Positions 978 to 46,005 of a DNA stretch of 55,799 bases are shown piece by piece (the first letter of the stretch is position 1; each line of letters begins with the position of its first letter). Source of the DNA: Acidimicrobiia bacterium (GTDB lineage Bacteria; Actinomycetota; Acidimicrobiia; Acidimicrobiales; Poriferisodalaceae); assembly GCA_022824805.1 (NCBI GenBank), contig JAJDZE010000170.1, positions 1 through 55,799 on the forward strand, in the 5' to 3' direction. The notes beneath the pieces were generated by a model. That model was not told the DNA's origin, searched no databases, and was given only the letters and a program-made list of their open reading frames with translations. Position numbers and translations under genes: made by a program.

Positions 978-1766
978 CTAGCGGGTGCTCGGTTGGGTGG
1001 GCTGGGTGGCGGTGATCTGGAGGCTGTCGTGTTCGCGCAGGCGCCAGCTGGGTCCTCGGATGTTGAACACGATGGCGTTGTGCATGAGTCGGTCCAGGAT
1101 GGCTGCGGCGATGACGGGGTCGCCGAAGATGTCGCCCCAGTCGGGCAGTCCTCGGTTGGTGGTGACGATGGTGGGGTGGCCTTTTTGGTAGCGGGTGTTG
1201 ACGACCTCGAAGAACCAGGCGGCTTCGGCTTGGGTCTTGTGCCTGATGAGGCCGACGTCGTCGATGACGAGCACTGTGGGGGCGGTGTAGGCCTTGATCT
1301 TGGTGGAGGCGTTGCCGTCGTGGTCGGCTCGCAGGAGGGTTTTGACCATGGCGTCGGCGGTGCTGAAGTAGCCGCGGTAGCCGGCTTCGACGGCGGCGAT
1401 GGCCAACGCGACGGCGAGGTGGGTCTTGCCGCAGCCGGGCTGGCCCAGGAACAGGACCGGTCGTTGCTCGTCGATGAAGCGCAGGGTGGCGAGGTCGGCG
1501 ACGAGCTTGGGGTCGATCGAGGGCTGGAAGTCGAAGTCGAAGTCCTCGATGCGGCGGTGGAACGGGAAGCGGGCGTAGCGCATGCGCGCGGCGAGGCGCC
1601 GGTCGCGGTCTGCTGAGGCTTGGATGGCGACGAGCCGGGCCAGGAACTCGATGTGGGTCCAGTCCTCGGTTCGGGCTTGGTCGGCGAGGCCGGCGAACGA
1701 GGCGGCGGCGGCGTCGAGTTTGAGGTAGCCGAGGTCGGACTTGATCTGCTCATAGAGACTGCTCAC
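978..1766 (-). CDS. istB: IstB, IS21 transposition helper ATPase
   Basis: A 262-residue AAA+ ATPase of the IstB/DnaC type, which assists the IstA transposase in target capture. The Walker A motif is GQPGCGKT (about residues 108-115) and the Walker B motif VLVIDD (about 165-170). The N-terminal LARLVAIQ..RDRRLAARMRYARFP segment is the family's helical domain. The start overlaps the end of istA by 4 bp, which suggests translational coupling. The length is normal and the gene looks intact, so the element may still be active. Confidence 0.93.
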   Translation of the reverse strand: MSSLYEQIKSDLGYLKLDAAAASFAGLADQARTEDWTHIEFLARLVAIQASADRDRRLAARMRYARFPFHRRIEDFDFDFQPSIDPKLVADLATLRFIDEQRPVLFLGQPGCGKTHLAVALAIAAVEAGYRGYFSTADAMVKTLLRADHDGNASTKIKAYTAPTVLVIDDVGLIRHKTQAEAAWFFEVVNTRYQKGHPTIVTTNRGLPDWGDIFGDPVIAAAILDRLMHNAIVFNIRGPSWRLREHDSLQITATQPTQPSTR

Positions 1767-3082
1767 TGGTGGGCCTCTGGGTGTTCGTCGACGACGTGGG
1801 GGTAGCGCTGGGCGAGGTCGACGGGGTCGACCTCGAAGCCGTCGCCGATGTCGAGCTGGCAGGCGGGCTCGGGGCTCGTGGTGATCAGCCGCAGCACCGG
1901 CCCGCCGGGCCGGTCGGTCATGGCTGCGGTCTGTGCTGCGTGGCGATGCGCGGGGTCCCAGACCTCGACGTGACGGCCGGCGACAAGGGTGTGGGTGGCC
2001 ACGAGGCGGCCGGCCCAGCGCACCTCGACGACATTTGAGTCCACGCCTCGGCGGATCTCGACGCGCTGGCCCAGGGTCTCGGGCGGGACCGAGTAGCGGG
2101 CGCCGTCGATGGACACGAACGGCACGATGTTGTGCACGCGGCGGGACTCGACGTAGTCGGTGTCGAACCGGTCCGCCGGGGGCGGCGACAAGAACGGCAG
2201 CTCGATCACGGCCCGATCGGCGGGGCGGGCGCCGGTCGTTCTCGATTCGACGGCATGCACGTTCGCGTCCAGCCAGACCGCCGCTCGATGGTTGAGCTCG
2301 TCAAGCGAGGCGGGGATGCCCTGGGCCTCGATCTCGGGCAGAAACGTTTGCCGGAGCTGGCGGAACGGCCGCTCGACCTTGCCCTTGCGCTTCGCGTCGC
2401 CGGCCTTGCACGGGGTGATCTTGGTGCCGTGATGTGCAGCAAACGCGACCGTCGGCGGATGCAGCACGAACCGGCGCCCCTGCGCCGACCCCAGCGCCCC
2501 CATCCGATCCGTGCGGCACGCTGCGGGGACCCCGCCGACGGTCTCGAAGAACCGGACCATGCCCTCAAAGGTGTGCTCACGGTCCTCGCTCGTGGTGAAC
2601 CACCAGACCCGCTGCCGGGACCAGCACATGATCATCCCGAAACACCGCAACGGCCCGCTCCAGCCCCACCGGCGCGCCCAATCATCGAGATGGCAGAAAT
2701 CGAACTGGGCCTCCTCGCCCGGGTCGGTGTGAATCGGCACCGACACCCGATCCGCAGCCCGGAACCGAGGCCCCCGGATCCGGCGCAGCTCCCGGGTCAC
2801 CGTCGAATAGCCCCCCGAGAAGCCCTCAGCCGCCAAACAGCGGAACACGCTGATCCCCAACAAGCGAGGATGATCACCGATCAGCCCCCGCACCCTCTCG
2901 GACCAAAAGGCGTTCATCACCTTCGCCTCATCAGGCACCGGCCGCCTCGCCGGCGGCGACCCCTGCTTCAGCCGCTTCGAGATCGTCGCCGGATGCCAAC
3001 CGGTCTCCGCCGAGATCTCCTCCAACGTCCAACCCTGCTCGCGCAGGTCCTTGATGTTCACGTAGGTCTCCTGGTTCATCAT
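1763..3082 (-). CDS. istA: IstA, IS21 DDE transposase
   Basis: A 439-residue transposase starting at MMNQETYVNIKDLREQGWTL. This start (3082, or the adjacent ATG at 3079) has GGAG about 10 nt upstream, and the 31-residue upstream extension is untypical. The N-terminal HTH lies at about residues 8-40 (EEISAETGWHPATISKRL). The DDE core includes EEAQFDF and CRTDRMGA, and the last acid lies in KGKVERPF. A C-terminal Mu-type domain follows (GARYSVPPETLGQRVEIR). It acts with IstB on the terminal repeats. Confidence 0.93.
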   Translation of the reverse strand: MMNQETYVNIKDLREQGWTLEEISAETGWHPATISKRLKQGSPPARRPVPDEAKVMNAFWSERVRGLIGDHPRLLGISVFRCLAAEGFSGGYSTVTRELRRIRGPRFRAADRVSVPIHTDPGEEAQFDFCHLDDWARRWGWSGPLRCFGMIMCWSRQRVWWFTTSEDREHTFEGMVRFFETVGGVPAACRTDRMGALGSAQGRRFVLHPPTVAFAAHHGTKITPCKAGDAKRKGKVERPFRQLRQTFLPEIEAQGIPASLDELNHRAAVWLDANVHAVESRTTGARPADRAVIELPFLSPPPADRFDTDYVESRRVHNIVPFVSIDGARYSVPPETLGQRVEIRRGVDSNVVEVRWAGRLVATHTLVAGRHVEVWDPAHRHAAQTAAMTDRPGGPVLRLITTSPEPACQLDIGDGFEVDPVDLAQRYPHVVDEHPEAHQ

Positions 3083-37776: not shown

Positions 37777-39936
37777 TCAGGAGCTGTTGCTGCCGAACCA
37801 TCCTTCGTGCAGGCGGAGGTAGATCCCCGACTCCATCAGGTCGAGCAACGCGAGATTCAGGCGCTCGCGCAGCTCGGCATTGTCCTCGTTGATCATCAGG
37901 CCGTAGCGGACGCGCTGAAAGTCCGATCCGGCCGTGACGAAGTCACCGCCGCCCCGGTGCGAGACGTAGTAATGCAGCACCGGGGCATCGAACACGACTG
38001 CCTCGACCTCGCCGTCCGTGAGCAGCTCGTAGGCCTCCTCGACGTCTTCGACGACGACCGGGCCGACACCGATCGTGGGCAGGTAGCTCTCACCGGCCGA
38101 GTGCTCGACGGTGGCGACTCGCCGACCAGCAAGATCCGACGGTCCCGATATCTCCGACCGCAGCTCATTGACCGCCAGCGATGATGCGATGGCCGCTGTG
38201 AAGCTGGCGAAGACCAGTGTTCCCAAGGAGATCCACAGCAGCGCGAACAGCCGGCCTCGGGTGCCGCGTGCCACCTTGTCGCCGTAGCCCACGGTGCTCA
38301 TGGTCACGACCGACCAGTAGAAGGAATCCCAGATTCCCCTCCGGTACGGCACGGCGAAATCGGGATTGTGGCGGCGTTCGAGCAGCCAGATCAGGTGAGC
38401 GGCGATGAGCACGGCCAGCGCGAAGACCGCCAGCAGCCACGGCAGGTCTGATGACGCGATTGCCGTGAAGAACGTTGCGATCCGGTCGCCGATGTTGCGG
38501 GAGGAATCGGCGGTCGTCAGGATGGCCAGACCCGAGTCGAGCACCGGCACCGAGAAGTCGATGTCCCGCTCGCGATGGCCCGTGACCGCCGTGCCGCCGA
38601 GGCCGACATGGGCGACGCCGCGGTGGATGTCGTCGATCTGCTTGGCGATCGTGTCCACCGCGTAGATCTCAGCCTCCATGCCCAGATCCGCCGCGAGCAG
38701 CTTGATCAGCTCCACTTCGAAACCGCTGTAGGCGCCGTTGGAGTAGATCACGAACGGCGGCAGGGCGCGGGCTGCGACGGAGAGGGTGCCGCCCGCCGGG
38801 GCGTCATCGCCGCTTGGTGACACGCCGACGGCAGCGGGATCCGCGGTGCGGATCCACTCGTGCACCGTTGCCAGGTTGGCCTGAATCCACTCTGCGGCGT
38901 GACGGCGGATGTCGGCAGGGTCGCCGCCCTCGGTGATCATGCGGGCGTTCTGCGCGGAGATGTCCTCGAGCGGTATGACGACCTGCTCCAGCAGCGTCCG
39001 CACGGCCGGGTTGGCATCAAGAAAGCTCGTGTTGGCGACAGCCCGGATGTCGTTGGGGGGCCAGCCGGTCTGGCACGGGTCGCCGGCGCAGCCGTCTATT
39101 CCCGCGACGAAGGTGCGGTCGACCGCGGCGGCTTGGTCGCGGGGCAGGGAGGGGAATGGCGTTTCGAGCCACACCACGTCGATGCCTGGCACGAGCTCGC
39201 CGACCGTCCAGTTCGGTGTCCACGTGAAGTACAGCACCGGCTCACCGGCTCGTTGGCGGGCGATGGTCTCGGCGATAAGCGGCGAGTAGTCGCCTTGGAT
39301 GTGCTCGACCGTGTCGGTGAGTCCGTACGCGTCGAGATGGTGATCAATGGTCCGTCCGCACGACCAGCCGATGTTGCAGCCCACCAAGTCCGCTCTGCCG
39401 TCGGCATCGTGATCGAACAGCGCCGCTATGGACGGGTCGGCGAGATCACCCAGATTGGTGATGCTGTGCGCCGCAGCGGTGCCGGCATCCACGAAGTAGC
39501 CCTGCAGCGCGCCGTCGTCGACGGCAGTGCCGACCACTTCCACGGCAGCGTCGGGGGAGATGTAGACATCGTGCAGCGGGAACCAGCCGCTGACCCACAG
39601 ATCGACGTTGCCGGCGGCGGCCTCCTCGTAGAACTCAGCGTTGTCCATGGTGACCGGGCCATCCGCTCGGTAGCCGAGCCGCTCGAGCAGCAGCCGAAGC
39701 ACCTCTGCCTGGAACCAGCCGGTGTCCCAGGTCGGACGCGCGATGCGGACGACGGGCTCTTCGGCGGTCGTCTGCGCCTGCGCCGCTGAGGCCATTCCCA
39801 TGAACGATCCGGCGAGCAGCACCGCTGTCGCCAAGCGTGCCGCGCTCCGGCGCGGCCCGATGCCGGCACTGCGCCTGCGCGCATGTGGGCTCTGCGGGAT
39901 CGCTACTGGCCAAGAGCGGCAACGGCGCCCCTTCAC
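37777..39936 (-). CDS. ProX/OpuAC betaine-binding domain fused to an iGluR-type K+ channel
   Basis: About 719 residues from GTG 39936. A signal segment (about 30-54) precedes a glycine-betaine-binding-type domain (about 60-350: RIARPTWDTGWFQAEV, LWVSGWFPLHDVY, CNIGWSCGRT). Then comes an ionotropic glutamate receptor layout: S1 (about 382-475, SGFEVELIKLLAADLG, RERDIDFSVP), TM1 (about 498-519), pore helix and K+ filter TVGYGD (548-553), a helix ending FASFTAAIASSLAV (compare SYTANLAAF), and S2 (about 590-711, VVFDAPVLHYYV). It should be a membrane ligand-gated K+ channel with an extra external osmolyte-binding module. It is divergent from a BCCT transporter. Confidence 0.88.
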   Translation of the reverse strand: MKGRRCRSWPVAIPQSPHARRRSAGIGPRRSAARLATAVLLAGSFMGMASAAQAQTTAEEPVVRIARPTWDTGWFQAEVLRLLLERLGYRADGPVTMDNAEFYEEAAAGNVDLWVSGWFPLHDVYISPDAAVEVVGTAVDDGALQGYFVDAGTAAAHSITNLGDLADPSIAALFDHDADGRADLVGCNIGWSCGRTIDHHLDAYGLTDTVEHIQGDYSPLIAETIARQRAGEPVLYFTWTPNWTVGELVPGIDVVWLETPFPSLPRDQAAAVDRTFVAGIDGCAGDPCQTGWPPNDIRAVANTSFLDANPAVRTLLEQVVIPLEDISAQNARMITEGGDPADIRRHAAEWIQANLATVHEWIRTADPAAVGVSPSGDDAPAGGTLSVAARALPPFVIYSNGAYSGFEVELIKLLAADLGMEAEIYAVDTIAKQIDDIHRGVAHVGLGGTAVTGHRERDIDFSVPVLDSGLAILTTADSSRNIGDRIATFFTAIASSDLPWLLAVFALAVLIAAHLIWLLERRHNPDFAVPYRRGIWDSFYWSVVTMSTVGYGDKVARGTRGRLFALLWISLGTLVFASFTAAIASSLAVNELRSEISGPSDLAGRRVATVEHSAGESYLPTIGVGPVVVEDVEEAYELLTDGEVEAVVFDAPVLHYYVSHRGGGDFVTAGSDFQRVRYGLMINEDNAELRERLNLALLDLMESGIYLRLHEGWFGSNSS

Positions 39937-40029
39937 GCGAACTACGTTAGGGCTTGGCCCGCGAGACAGTCGCCGGCTTGAATCGGAACTGTCCGGGGCC
40001 TTCCTTCGGGGGAACACAGGGGGTCCAAC
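39937..40029. promoter_or_regulatory. Divergent promoter region of the osmolyte locus
   Basis: Only 93 bp separate the start of the ProX-channel fusion (minus strand) from the BCCT gene (plus strand), so both must be controlled from here. ACAGGGGG lies just before the BCCT ATG. No clear palindrome or -10/-35 pair was identified. Confidence 0.4.
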
Positions 40030-41856
40030 ATGGACGAAGACCAAGAAAACGTGGCCGTAGACCCGCGCATTCATCGAAGTCCCGACGACACGGACATCGA
40101 CCTCACCGAGGCGACACTCGCGTTGCACGATTGGGAGGAAGAGGAAGAGCGCCGACGCGATGAGGCGATTCACAACCGCCAGCCGCTGCAGGGTCTGCAG
40201 ATTGATCCGGACATCGATTTCTACCCCGAGGTTGCCGACCGGGAGCCGGGCGACCGCAACATCGTGCGCGCCGGTTTCGACATCCATCCGCAGGTGACGT
40301 TCTGGTCGTCGGGAATCCTGCTGGTGTTCATCCTGCTGTCGATCTTCGTCGACGGCACCCAGGATGTGTTCAGCTCGATTCTCGACTTCATCAACGAGAA
40401 GCTCGGCTGGTTCTACATCCTCGACTTCAACATCTTCCTGATAGTGGCGATCTATTTTGCGTTCAGCAGGTACGGGAAGATCAAACTGGGCGGCCCGTTC
40501 GCCCTGCCGGAGTTCTCCACGGTCTCGTGGTACGCGATGTTGCTCTCGGCGGGCTTGGGCATCGGGCTGATGTTCTGGGGAGTTGCCGAGCCGATCTTCC
40601 ACTTCATGTCGCCGGCTCCGTTCTTCGAAGGCGTCGAGGCCGGAACCGGCGCGGCAGGCCAGGCAGCGCTCGCGACCACCTATCTCCACTGGGGGGTTCA
40701 CGGCTGGGCCCTCTATGGGCTGGTCGCGCTGGCGCTGGGCTTTTTTGCCTACAACCGAGGTTTGCCGCTGACGTTCCGCTCGATCTTCTATCCGATCCTG
40801 GGCAAGAAGATCTACGGCACATGGGGCAACGTCATCGACATCCTGACGGTCATGGCCACGCTGTTCGGGTTGGCCACATCGCTCGGCTTCGGTGCGAGCC
40901 AGGCCGCAGCGGGCTTGAACAAGCTGTTCGGGCTTCCCGACGAGCAATGGTTCCAGGTGCTGCTGATCGTCGGCATCACGGTGCTGGCGACCATTTCGGT
41001 GGTTGCCGGGCTCGACGCCGGCGTGAAGCGACTGAGCGAGCTGAACATCTGGCTGGCCGGCGCGTTCTTGATCTTCGTGCTGCTGGTCGGCCCGACGCTG
41101 TTCATCTTGTCGTTGTTCACCCAGAGCGTCGGAAACTACATTCAGGTCCTGCCGGAGTTCGCATTCTGGAATGCGGCCTTCACTGAGACGCAATGGCAAG
41201 CGTGGTGGACCATCTTCTATTGGGGATGGTGGATCTCGTGGTCGCCATTCGTCGGGATGTTCATTGCCCGCATCTCCAAGGGCCGCTCGGTGCGCGAGCT
41301 GCTCTTGGGCGTGATCGTCCTGCCGTCGATCCTGTGCTTCTTGTGGATGGCGGTCTTCGGAGGCTCTGCCATCCACCTGCAGCAGAATGGGCTGCGCGAC
41401 GTGGCAACCGCAGTGAACGAGAACGTCGCGACCGCCCTGTTCGACATGCTGGAGTCGTTCCCGCTCACCGGCATCGTCTCGTTCGTCGGCGTGCTGTTGT
41501 TGGTGTCGTTCTTCGTGACCTCGTCGGATTCGGGCTCGCTGGTCGTCGACCATCTCACCTCCGGCGGCAAGCTGGACTCGCCGAAGCCCCAGCGGGTCTT
41601 CTGGGCGTGCATGGAGGGCGCGGTGGCGATTGCGCTGCTGATCGGCGGCGGACTGAGCGCCCTTCAGACCGCGGCAGTCTCCATCGGACTGCCGTTCGCG
41701 CTGATCCTGCTGATCATGTGCTGGAGCTGCAAGAAGGCGTTCGATGAGGAATTGGACTTGCTCGAGAGCCACTACGACGAACAGATCTTCCGATCCCAGC
41801 ACAGCGGATTGATCGCTACGGCCAAAGAACGTCTTCAGCAAGGACCGAAGAAGTGA
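40030..41856 (+). CDS. BCCT-family betaine/carnitine/choline transporter
   Basis: A 608-residue secondary transporter with a charged cytoplasmic N-terminus of about 85 residues and about 12 membrane segments. Signature motifs are SAGLGIGLMFWGVAEP (substrate/Na+ region of TM3), HWGVHGWALYGLVALALGFF, the GWWISWSPFVGMFIARISKG core of TM8-9, and VTSSDSGS in TM11. It imports glycine betaine or a related compatible solute for osmoprotection, probably with Na+. An acidic tail (EELDLLESHYDE) may act in osmosensing. It is encoded next to a betaine-binding protein and the channel fusion. Confidence 0.93.
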   Translation: MDEDQENVAVDPRIHRSPDDTDIDLTEATLALHDWEEEEERRRDEAIHNRQPLQGLQIDPDIDFYPEVADREPGDRNIVRAGFDIHPQVTFWSSGILLVFILLSIFVDGTQDVFSSILDFINEKLGWFYILDFNIFLIVAIYFAFSRYGKIKLGGPFALPEFSTVSWYAMLLSAGLGIGLMFWGVAEPIFHFMSPAPFFEGVEAGTGAAGQAALATTYLHWGVHGWALYGLVALALGFFAYNRGLPLTFRSIFYPILGKKIYGTWGNVIDILTVMATLFGLATSLGFGASQAAAGLNKLFGLPDEQWFQVLLIVGITVLATISVVAGLDAGVKRLSELNIWLAGAFLIFVLLVGPTLFILSLFTQSVGNYIQVLPEFAFWNAAFTETQWQAWWTIFYWGWWISWSPFVGMFIARISKGRSVRELLLGVIVLPSILCFLWMAVFGGSAIHLQQNGLRDVATAVNENVATALFDMLESFPLTGIVSFVGVLLLVSFFVTSSDSGSLVVDHLTSGGKLDSPKPQRVFWACMEGAVAIALLIGGGLSALQTAAVSIGLPFALILLIMCWSCKKAFDEELDLLESHYDEQIFRSQHSGLIATAKERLQQGPKK

Positions 41857-41887: not shown

Positions 41888-42853
41888 ATGACAAAGCAAC
41901 GACGCAGAAGTCTGGTTTTGGTCGGTGCCGTGGTCGGGCTGGTGCTCGTCGCCCTCGTGGTGATCTTCACGAGCGAAGAGGAAGAGGGCACGGTGCGGAT
42001 CGCCCGAGCCAACTGGGAAAGCGGCTATGCACAGGCGGAGATTTACGCAGCGCTCATTGAAGAGCTGGGCTACGAAGTCAGCGATCCGTCCGAGCACGAA
42101 CTCGGACCGCTCAACTTCTATCCCGCACTGAGGACCGGCCAATACGACCTGTGGGCCAACGGATGGTTCCCCAACCACGACATCTTCCTCGACTACGAGA
42201 CGGCCGCAGGGTTGTCGAGCGACGACGATATCGAAGCGGTCGGGACCCAAGTGGGCGGCGGAGGCCGGGAGGGGTACCTGGTCGACAAGGCCACCGCCGA
42301 CAGGCTGGGCCTGAGGTCGATGAGCCAGCTGTCCGATTCGGCAATTGCCGCCGAGTTCGACACCGACGGCGACGGCACCGCCGACCTGTACGGATGCAAC
42401 GCGGACTGGGGATGTGCCCAGATCATTAACGGCCACATCGCCGACAGCGACTGGGGCGCCAATGTGGAGCAGGACTCGGGCAACTACAACGACCTCATCG
42501 GCGAGGTGCGAGCCCGCGTCGATTCCGGCCAGCCGGTGCTGTTCTACGGCTGGACGCCGAACTGGACCTACACCGTTCTCACTCCCGGTGAGAACGTGGT
42601 GTGGCTGGACTCCGCGTTCGAAGTGAACGACATCCGGGCCGTCGCCAATGCCGATTTCCTGGACAGCCATCCAGACATTCGCAGCCTGCTCGAGCAGGTC
42701 AAGATCGATCTTGGGTGGATAGCGACACAGAACGAGCGGATGGCCGCGGGTGACTACACCCAGGAGCACATCCGTGCAGACGCATCGCAGTGGATCGAGG
42801 AGAATCGGGCCAAGGTCAACGGCTGGCTCGAGAACGCACGGGCGGCGTCCTAG
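41888..42853 (+). CDS. Membrane-anchored glycine betaine-binding protein (ProX/OpuAC type)
   Basis: A 321-residue protein with an uncleaved-looking N-terminal anchor (LVLVGAVVGLVLVALVVIF, about 10-28) and an external OpuAC domain. Shared motifs with the fusion protein are RIARANWESGYAQAEI, YDLWANGWFPNHDIF, GCNADWGCAQI and PVLFYGWTPNWTYTVLTPGE, whose aromatics suit a quaternary-amine cage. It starts 31 bp after BCCT. No ABC permease or ATPase gene lies nearby, so it may deliver substrate to the BCCT carrier or act as a sensor. Confidence 0.9.
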   Translation: MTKQRRRSLVLVGAVVGLVLVALVVIFTSEEEEGTVRIARANWESGYAQAEIYAALIEELGYEVSDPSEHELGPLNFYPALRTGQYDLWANGWFPNHDIFLDYETAAGLSSDDDIEAVGTQVGGGGREGYLVDKATADRLGLRSMSQLSDSAIAAEFDTDGDGTADLYGCNADWGCAQIINGHIADSDWGANVEQDSGNYNDLIGEVRARVDSGQPVLFYGWTPNWTYTVLTPGENVVWLDSAFEVNDIRAVANADFLDSHPDIRSLLEQVKIDLGWIATQNERMAAGDYTQEHIRADASQWIEENRAKVNGWLENARAAS

Positions 42854-44662: not shown

Positions 44663-45865
44663 TTAGGTTGACGTAGGCAGCAGGAACGCTGACATCAGGT
44701 CCACCCGAGCGCGGATGCCCTCGGTTGAGACCTCAATGAGTCCCGCATCTTCGAGCCGGTTGAGGTCGCGAGCCAGCGTTCGCGGCCCAGTGCGCGCGTA
44801 CATCTGCGCCAGTTGCGGCGTCAGACCGCCGATATCTGACCGTGGAACTCTCGCTGCAGGCTCCAATGCCATCACCAGTGTGCGTTGGCGCTCCGACGCC
44901 GGGCTCGTCGGGAACCGGGCCATCGTCTGCGCGACGTAGCTCTGCCAAGCAAGACCCAGGTGTTGCGCTCTCACAGCCGCCGAGTGCTCGACGAGTCCGT
45001 CCACGAGCCCTTCGATGCCGTATTCGAGGAAGCCCAGGACGTCCCGTTCACGGCTGGCCGCAGCGAGCCGTGCGTAGTACCGGTCACGCGTGAGGTTGAA
45101 GTGATTGGCCATCAGATTCGCCGCCGCGAGCGGGACCATCCCCGATCTCGCGAGGATCACGTACTCGAGCAGCCGCGCGGTTCGGCCGTTGCCATCGGCG
45201 AACGGGTGGATCCAGGCGATGTACAGGTGCGCGAGGAGAGCGCTCAGCACGGTGCGAGCGAAGACATCGCGGTGCTCGTCGCTCTCGCTGCTGGTGGGTC
45301 GGAAGTCGTCGCCGTCGAGCCAGGCAGCCAGCCGTTCGAGCAGATGCCAGCAGTCGCGTGCCCCAGGGCCTACGTAGGGGCCGACGACGACTGAATGCGT
45401 GCGGATGGTGCCCGGCGCCGATGCGGCGTCAGGATCGACGCTGTTGAGCACCCATCGATTCAGGTCGCAGATCAGTTCGGCGCTCAAGTGGAAGTCGCCA
45501 TCTTCCATCACCATGTCGTCGAGTCGTTCGAACGCTTCGAGGACGTTGCGGACCTCACGTTCCTGGTAGGCGCGGGACTGGGGTGCGGTGAACTCCCCGG
45601 CGGAAATGCTCTGTACCTGCTCGACGGTCAGGGTGTTGCCCTCGATGGCAACCGTGGCGTGGGCGCCACGGATGAGAGCATGTTGGTGCAGCGCCTCAGC
45701 AACTGGCGGGGCGAGGGGCGTTCCCGAGAGTTCGGCGCACCGTGCGTATGCCTCGCCGATTTTCATCCACGAGCGTGCGCCAAGACGGCTGGCGACACTC
45801 GCATCGAAGTCGATCCACGGATGGGTGTCGGTGTATTCGCGGGCCTCGTCGCGGCCGGTTACCAC
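44663..45865 (-). CDS. Fic-domain protein with C-terminal winged helix
   Basis: About 400 residues from GTG 45865. The catalytic Fic motif is HPFADGNGRTARLLEY (mid-protein), which transfers AMP or another nucleotide to a hydroxyl side chain. An N-terminal autoinhibitory motif TVAIEGN (S/T-x3-E-G/N) marks a class II Fic protein that restrains itself. The C-terminal LTPQLAQMYARTGPRTLARDLNRLEDAGLIEV segment is a winged helix. The target protein is unknown; no separate antitoxin is needed or seen. Confidence 0.9.
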   Translation of the reverse strand: MVTGRDEAREYTDTHPWIDFDASVASRLGARSWMKIGEAYARCAELSGTPLAPPVAEALHQHALIRGAHATVAIEGNTLTVEQVQSISAGEFTAPQSRAYQEREVRNVLEAFERLDDMVMEDGDFHLSAELICDLNRWVLNSVDPDAASAPGTIRTHSVVVGPYVGPGARDCWHLLERLAAWLDGDDFRPTSSESDEHRDVFARTVLSALLAHLYIAWIHPFADGNGRTARLLEYVILARSGMVPLAAANLMANHFNLTRDRYYARLAAASRERDVLGFLEYGIEGLVDGLVEHSAAVRAQHLGLAWQSYVAQTMARFPTSPASERQRTLVMALEPAARVPRSDIGGLTPQLAQMYARTGPRTLARDLNRLEDAGLIEVSTEGIRARVDLMSAFLLPTST

Positions 45866-46005
45866 GATGCTGCCTGATGTCGGGTGGGCATCAGTGCAGT
45901 GTAATGGGCTGTGATTTGCTATCGACCCCTTGTTTTGACCGATTTGCTGTCCAGCAGATTGTCGCTTTGATTGACTGTTGCGGCCGCTCGCGGGGCGGTG
46001 CGTGG

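Follow-up and report, generated by a model that had tools for sequence, protein, structure and literature searches.

A single intact gene in an Acidimicrobiia bacterium joins a ProX/OpuAC betaine-binding domain to a complete GluR0-type S1-TM-pore-TM-S2 K+ channel. The gene is divergent from a BCCT transporter gene and a gene for a second, membrane-anchored ProX-like protein (ProX2). The best reading (probability about 0.6) is a betaine-modulated, or betaine/amino-acid co-gated, K+ channel working with Na+/betaine uptake, although gating by betaine is inferred. The window, i.e., the whole analyzed stretch of 55,799 nucleotides, was contig JAJDZE010000170.1 of assembly GCA_022824805.1 (positions 1 to 55,799). 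Loci and genomes from the surveys are designated below by L and G numbers, respectively.

Structure and integrity of the fusion gene

The fusion had been proposed in a sequence-only reading, and its coordinates were confirmed (Table 1). The gene lies on the minus strand and has no internal stop, while the plus strand of the same stretch holds stops in that frame. GTG at 39936 is a candidate start codon, but the open frame runs on upstream and the start is not settled. In Pfam searches, OpuAC (PF04069, E 4.8e-45, 155 bits against a cut-off of 21), SBP_bac_3 (residues 390-715, E 8.9e-22), Ion_trans_2 (507-587, E 6.2e-15), and Lig_chan (504-605, E 6.5e-12) were found, all above gathering cut-offs. 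No match to PF01094 was found up to E 0.1. In NCBIfam, the protein scored as the ProX equivalog PRK11119 (338 bits against a cut-off of 215). The closest solved chains were E. coli ProX (1r9l, E 2.5e-62, query residues 73-365) for the N-terminal part and the Nostoc iGluR ligand core (2pyy) for S1/S2. The S2 match ended at residue 717 of 719, and only two transmembrane regions (501-519 and about 563-592) were found by hydropathy, besides a low-confidence N-terminal helix of a probable signal peptide.

Table 1. Features of the fusion gene and its divergent neighbors
Position	Strand	Feature	Basis
37777..39936	-	Fusion gene: ProX/OpuAC domain + GluR0-type K+ channel, 719 aa	Single ORF; Pfam and NCBIfam
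39772..39936	-	Residues 1-55: Arg-rich stretch and hydrophobic segment ending AQAQ, probable signal peptide	Sequence; low-confidence helix 31-46 in the model
38881..39750	-	OpuAC/ProX betaine-binding domain, residues 63-352, Trp prism W118, W191, W239	Pfam; solved chains; alignments; predicted structure
38512..38784	-	S1 half of amino-acid ligand-binding domain, residues 385-475, Arg R455	Pfam; solved chains; alignment
38380..38436	-	TM1, residues 501-519	Hydropathy; helix 498-523 in the model
38278..38295	-	K+ selectivity filter TVGYGD, residues 548-553	Alignment
38155..38262	-	TM2 / gate helix, residues 559-594, with iGluR-like SFTAAIAS	Alignment; model; hydropathy
37786..38154	-	S2 half of ligand-binding domain, residues 595-717, Asp D650	Pfam; solved chains; alignment
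39937..40029		93-bp gap between the divergent fusion and BCCT genes (shared promoter region inferred)	Coordinates
40030..41856	+	BCCT transporter, 608 aa, six aromatic substrate residues kept	Pfam and NCBIfam; solved chains; alignment
41888..42853	+	Second ProX-like protein (ProX2), 321 aa, single N-terminal hydrophobic anchor, no channel	Pfam and NCBIfam; hydropathy; alignment

Structure prediction (AlphaFold) was confident for the N-terminal domain alone (pLDDT 86.5, pTM 0.81). Its best Foldseek match was ProX with glycine betaine (TM 0.86/0.88, 38% identity), ahead of choline-, DMSP-, and TMAO-binding proteins. The full-length model was weak (pLDDT 64.5) and too poor for domain contacts, although it matched ProX and iGluR LBD/TMD chains.

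To see whether the fusion recurs, a pattern-seeded scan was run on a collection with one genome for each of 84,980 species, and 45 loci were obtained (relatives without the six peptide patterns would be missed). One frame spanned both halves in 39 of the 45 (L028 and L040 among them are truncated). Of the other six, L035 has a frame break inside the pore region, L041 has one between the halves at a run of seven A, L038 is cut at the contig end, and L043-L045 match only the OpuAC part, near the C-terminal end of 657-662-aa frames, and were dropped as non-fusions. L041 was the only candidate for a two-gene homologue; no ATG or GTG was seen for its second half near the junction (a TTG start is listed), and a sequencing or assembly indel is the simplest inference. 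GC at third positions was flat over the junction in the window (0.80-0.89 in eight blocks). The two outcomes that the sequence-only reading had named as counting against the fusion, a join artefact and homologues consistently encoded as two genes, thus did not occur.

Distribution and conservation

Fusion holders included Acidimicrobiia, two records titled Deltaproteobacteria (placed in Myxococcota in the tree analysis), and Cyanobacteria (Halomicronema, Leptolyngbya). Domain content and order were the same in the window and in five fusion relatives scanned. Alignments A1 (31 rows) and A2 (11 rows) were chosen from the window and the 45 loci, and A3 had 27 rows (16 fusion, 8 ProX2, 3 Symploca). 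With a profile of the channel half (A2), 95 of 395 genomes of the window's class matched at E 1e-10. Of these, 28 have the fusion-type channel (E 1.4e-165 or better), and 27 of the 28 loci show the OpuAC part, in open frames of 692 aa or more, the last being cut by its contig end. Eleven further genomes carry weaker matches (E about 1e-94 to 1e-43) in frames of 257-488 aa, too short for the fusion, and the remaining 56 have only partial matches of E 5e-17 or worse and were not counted. In 396 genomes of the phylum, 10 matched at 1e-30: five are fusions (G000, G075, G1306, G1160, and G1170, the last three outside the window's class), four are plain, and G1369 has a remnant. In 386 cyanobacterial genomes, 69 matched, of which 2 are fusions (one being G395, on which the sample was centered), and the others have frames of at most 437 aa. 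In 297 genomes of the phylum of L036, 17 matched and only the chosen center is a fusion, the others having frames of 252-503 aa. The plain channel is therefore the rule in the cyanobacterial and L036-phylum samples, while the fusion is the commoner form in the window's class; the surveyed genomes overlap those of the 45 loci. In longer plain frames (L126, L143, L144), the extra residues looked by eye, without a family scan, like out-of-gene reading.

Conservation was assessed in an alignment of 40 rows (the window and 39 loci), many of which are near relatives, so that counts are not independent events. The three tryptophans that align with the ProX betaine prism are W118 (38 of 38 rows with a residue), W191 (39 of 39), and W239 (37 of 39, 2 Phe), and the carboxylate-binding His is H122 (34 of 38, 4 Gln). 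In L041, outside this alignment, the W239 position is Arg. The prism and the role of the His are described for OpuAC (PMC2861598), and the three tryptophans were mapped to what are probably the prism residues of ProX (W65/W140/W188) through the alignment with the solved chain. S1 Arg R455 is kept in 40 of 40 rows, S2 Asp D650 in 39 of 39, TVGYGD in 40 of 40, and the gate FTA in 39 of 39. The roles of the Arg and Asp for glutamate are stated in PMC2950845. The S1 Arg had been placed in RERDIDFS by the sequence-only reading; however, the residue that aligns with the binding Arg is R455 (in GHR), not R457 (6 of 40 rows).

A single origin of the fusion was not shown. In a FastTree tree of the channel half (67 rows), 6 plain channels fell inside the fusion clade, and in the OpuAC tree (47 rows), 5 cyanobacterial non-fusion ProX domains did so. 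An IQ-TREE quick mixture tree of the channel half (66 rows, one short row dropped) put the 22 fusions on one side of a branch with support of only 17. The scatter over three phyla, with rarity in two of them, suggests transfer between lineages.

Gene neighborhood and the BCCT carrier

The neighboring BCCT and ProX2 genes, not mentioned in the sequence-only reading, are the strongest functional evidence. Of 36 fusion loci with at least 5.5 kb on both sides (window not counted), 33 hold a BCCT match. The exceptions are two cyanobacterial loci (L035, L146) and L040, where the gene is truncated; L037/L147 shows no BCCT as far as its contig reaches, so the transporter is not always beside the fusion. 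In 32 of the 33, the ProX2 relative is there too, and in L036 another OpuAC protein takes its place. The layout is divergent in most, co-directional (BCCT-ProX2-fusion) in L011, L012, and L023, and convergent (fusion facing ProX2 and BCCT) in L029, L031, L150, L151, and L152. In L036 and L041, the order is BCCT, an OpuAC protein that neither ProX query finds there, and the fusion; in L036, the last two overlap by 13 bp if the first ATG is used.

Genes outside the trio are not kept: of 45 loci (flanks of about 6 kb, some shorter), only L002, the closest relative, retains the acyl-CoA dehydrogenase, the MaoC-side ORF, and the amidohydrolase. As a control, flanks of about 1.5 kb were compared, and ProX or BCCT was seen at 20 of 27 fusion loci but at 0 of 49 plain GluR0-like loci, 4 of which were re-read with wider flanks and showed none either. 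Shared ancestry alone would keep other neighbors too, so the trio is most simply held together by function. No ABC permease was found among the six window neighbors scanned, whereas L035 has an NMT1-type ABC set beside it.

The BCCT protein matched its family with 628 bits. Its nearest solved relative was the trimethylamine carrier TmaT (504 bits, against 322 for BetP), and it scored below the NCBIfam betaine cut-off (554 against 650), so the substrate may differ from glycine betaine. Four of the aromatic residues are reported to be conserved only in carriers of quaternary-ammonium compounds, and Met105 in the pocket is not seen so in BetP and CaiT (PMC11708041). All six aromatic residues (W/W/Y/W/W/W) are kept in every BCCT row with a residue (39 or 38 of 39), and the Met105 position is Leu in 28, Ile in 4, and Met in 7 of 39 rows (Leu in the window). 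The Leu in the window weakens trimethylamine as the sole substrate, and a betaine-like substrate is likely, but the substrate is not settled.

Proposed function and relation to known channels

In the proposed working, outside betaine closes the ProX clamshell on top of the channel, which, alone or together with an amino acid in the S1/S2 clamshell, opens or sensitizes the K+ pore, while the BCCT carrier imports betaine with Na+. Synechocystis GluR0 gives K+ uptake activity in E. coli and affects cell volume in KCl upshock, and bacteria are stated to first take up K+ with glutamate and later shift to compatible solutes while releasing potassium glutamate (PMC13099474). A betaine sensor stacked on an amino-acid sensor and encoded with a betaine-type carrier fits that switch. 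Na+/betaine symport, as expected for the BetP type, brings in positive charge, and K+ leaving through a betaine-opened channel would restore the membrane potential and remove the K+ that betaine replaces. The ligand, the link from binding to gating, the direction of K+ flow, the Na+ coupling, and the physiological role are all inferred; no binding, gating, or current has been measured. The window's genome also holds two neighboring TrkH-type matches, so K+ release would have a counterpart in uptake. The suggestions of the sequence-only reading that external osmolytes tune the K+ conductance and that two ligands bind are supported in that both binding modules keep their recognition residues, but they remain inferences.

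Other readings were considered less likely. The ProX domain might only assemble or stabilize the tetramer of an amino-acid-gated channel, as the invariant S1/S2 residues and the involvement of the eukaryotic iGluR N-terminal domain in assembly (PMC2924276) would support, but a betaine pocket kept in nearly all rows is not expected for a mere scaffold, and BCCT and a second ProX are linked. It is also unlikely that the fused domain is mainly a tethered binding protein that hands betaine to the BCCT, with the channel providing counter-charge or an anchor. Both ProX proteins do lie beside the BCCT and ProX2 has its own anchor, but BCCT carriers do not seem to use binding proteins, L035 and L146 have no nearby BCCT, and ProX2 already exists for such a role. 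Sensing of another methylated solute (choline, proline betaine, trimethylamine N-oxide, DMSP, carnitine) for carbon or nitrogen scavenging is doubtful as well: the lower-scoring structural matches and the TmaT-like carrier point that way, but ProX is clearly the best match by sequence and fold, and the Met special to the trimethylamine carrier is Leu or Ile in 32 of 39 rows. An artefact, for which only the frame break of L041 speaks, is refuted by recurrence in records of three phyla; many genomes of the class survey are the same as those of the 45 loci.

Group 1 prokaryotic iGluRs such as GluR0 (PMC2950845, PMC13099474) share the S1-TM-pore-TM-S2 order, the K+ filter, the S1 Arg and S2 Asp, and the lack of a fourth TM, but GluR0 has no N-terminal domain (PMC11479355). 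E. coli ProX shares the fold, prism, and sequence, but here the domain is fused to a channel and encoded beside a secondary carrier. Animal and plant iGluRs/GLRs also have a clamshell N-terminal domain before the S1/S2 domain and pore, and a SYTANLAAF-like gate, but theirs is of the LIVBP/ANF type (PF01094, PMC2924276), and the protein studied here has no M4 helix and has a K+ filter; the layout is inferred to have arisen separately. BetP and TmaT share the six aromatic residues with the neighboring BCCT, but neither appears to be encoded with a binding protein or channel. The 2010 survey of prokaryotic iGluRs found 22 channels, 12 with a K+ filter, and its printed domain list has no betaine-binding domain (PMC2950845); 23 prokaryotic iGluRs were found in 971 genomes in PMC2924276. 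No paper on such a fusion was recognized by title or start of abstract among the top-ranked open-licence papers, and the combination and the trio appear undescribed, while the channel and sensor types themselves are known. The ProX profile scores far above its cut-off on the whole protein, so such channels are probably filed as transporter parts.

A more far-reaching possibility, held only tentatively, is that bacteria evolved, independently of animals, a two-clamshell ionotropic receptor, i.e., a coincidence detector in which betaine and an amino acid jointly gate a K+ pore. It would be built into a three-part osmolyte-exchange system with a BCCT symporter and a tethered binding protein, possibly the first BCCT served by one.

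The finding goes against the stated view that bacterial GluR0 lacks an N-terminal domain and that such a domain was a later, eukaryotic development (PMC11479355), and it gives an apparently separate origin of the stacked-clamshell receptor layout. The protein would probably be the first ligand-gated K+ channel tied to betaine sensing, with genetics that predict its job: a channel and a betaine-type carrier kept together in two phyla.

A shortened relative of the fusion and OpuAC domains in Symploca

Beside a BCCT and a ProX2, a shortened relative of the fusion was observed in genome G1369 (locus L145), in which S1 runs almost straight into the TVGYGD region, and the OpuAC domain and first TM are missing. 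This reflects either a deletion or an assembly fault in an 87% complete genome. In Symploca (loci L043, L044, and L045), OpuAC domains lie near the C-terminal end of 657–662-aa frames, and these are perhaps permease-binding-protein fusions.

Coordinates of additional features in the window and in other loci
Location	Positions	Strand	Feature
L145 (G1369)	1498-2271		Shortened relative of the fusion
L036	4898-5818		Free OpuAC protein
L041	4839-5759		Free OpuAC protein
L035	236-5751		Leptolyngbya genes that the fusion follows
Window	44663-45898	-	Fic/DOC family protein near the trio
G000 (window's genome), C207	28130-29242		ProX-like stretch, 35% identical to the fusion's ProX part
G000, C35	50515-51564		ProX-like stretch, 37% identical to the fusion's ProX part

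Variation in neighboring genes

The two further ProX-like stretches of the window's genome are located elsewhere than the fusion. In Leptolyngbya (L035), the fusion follows a glutamine synthetase-like gene, a CobW-type gene, and an NMT1-type ABC transporter set instead of a BCCT. In the Myxococcota/Deltaproteobacteria loci (L036 and L041), the free binding protein beside the BCCT is an OpuAC protein that was not found there by the ProX2 query, so the same slot seems filled by a different relative.
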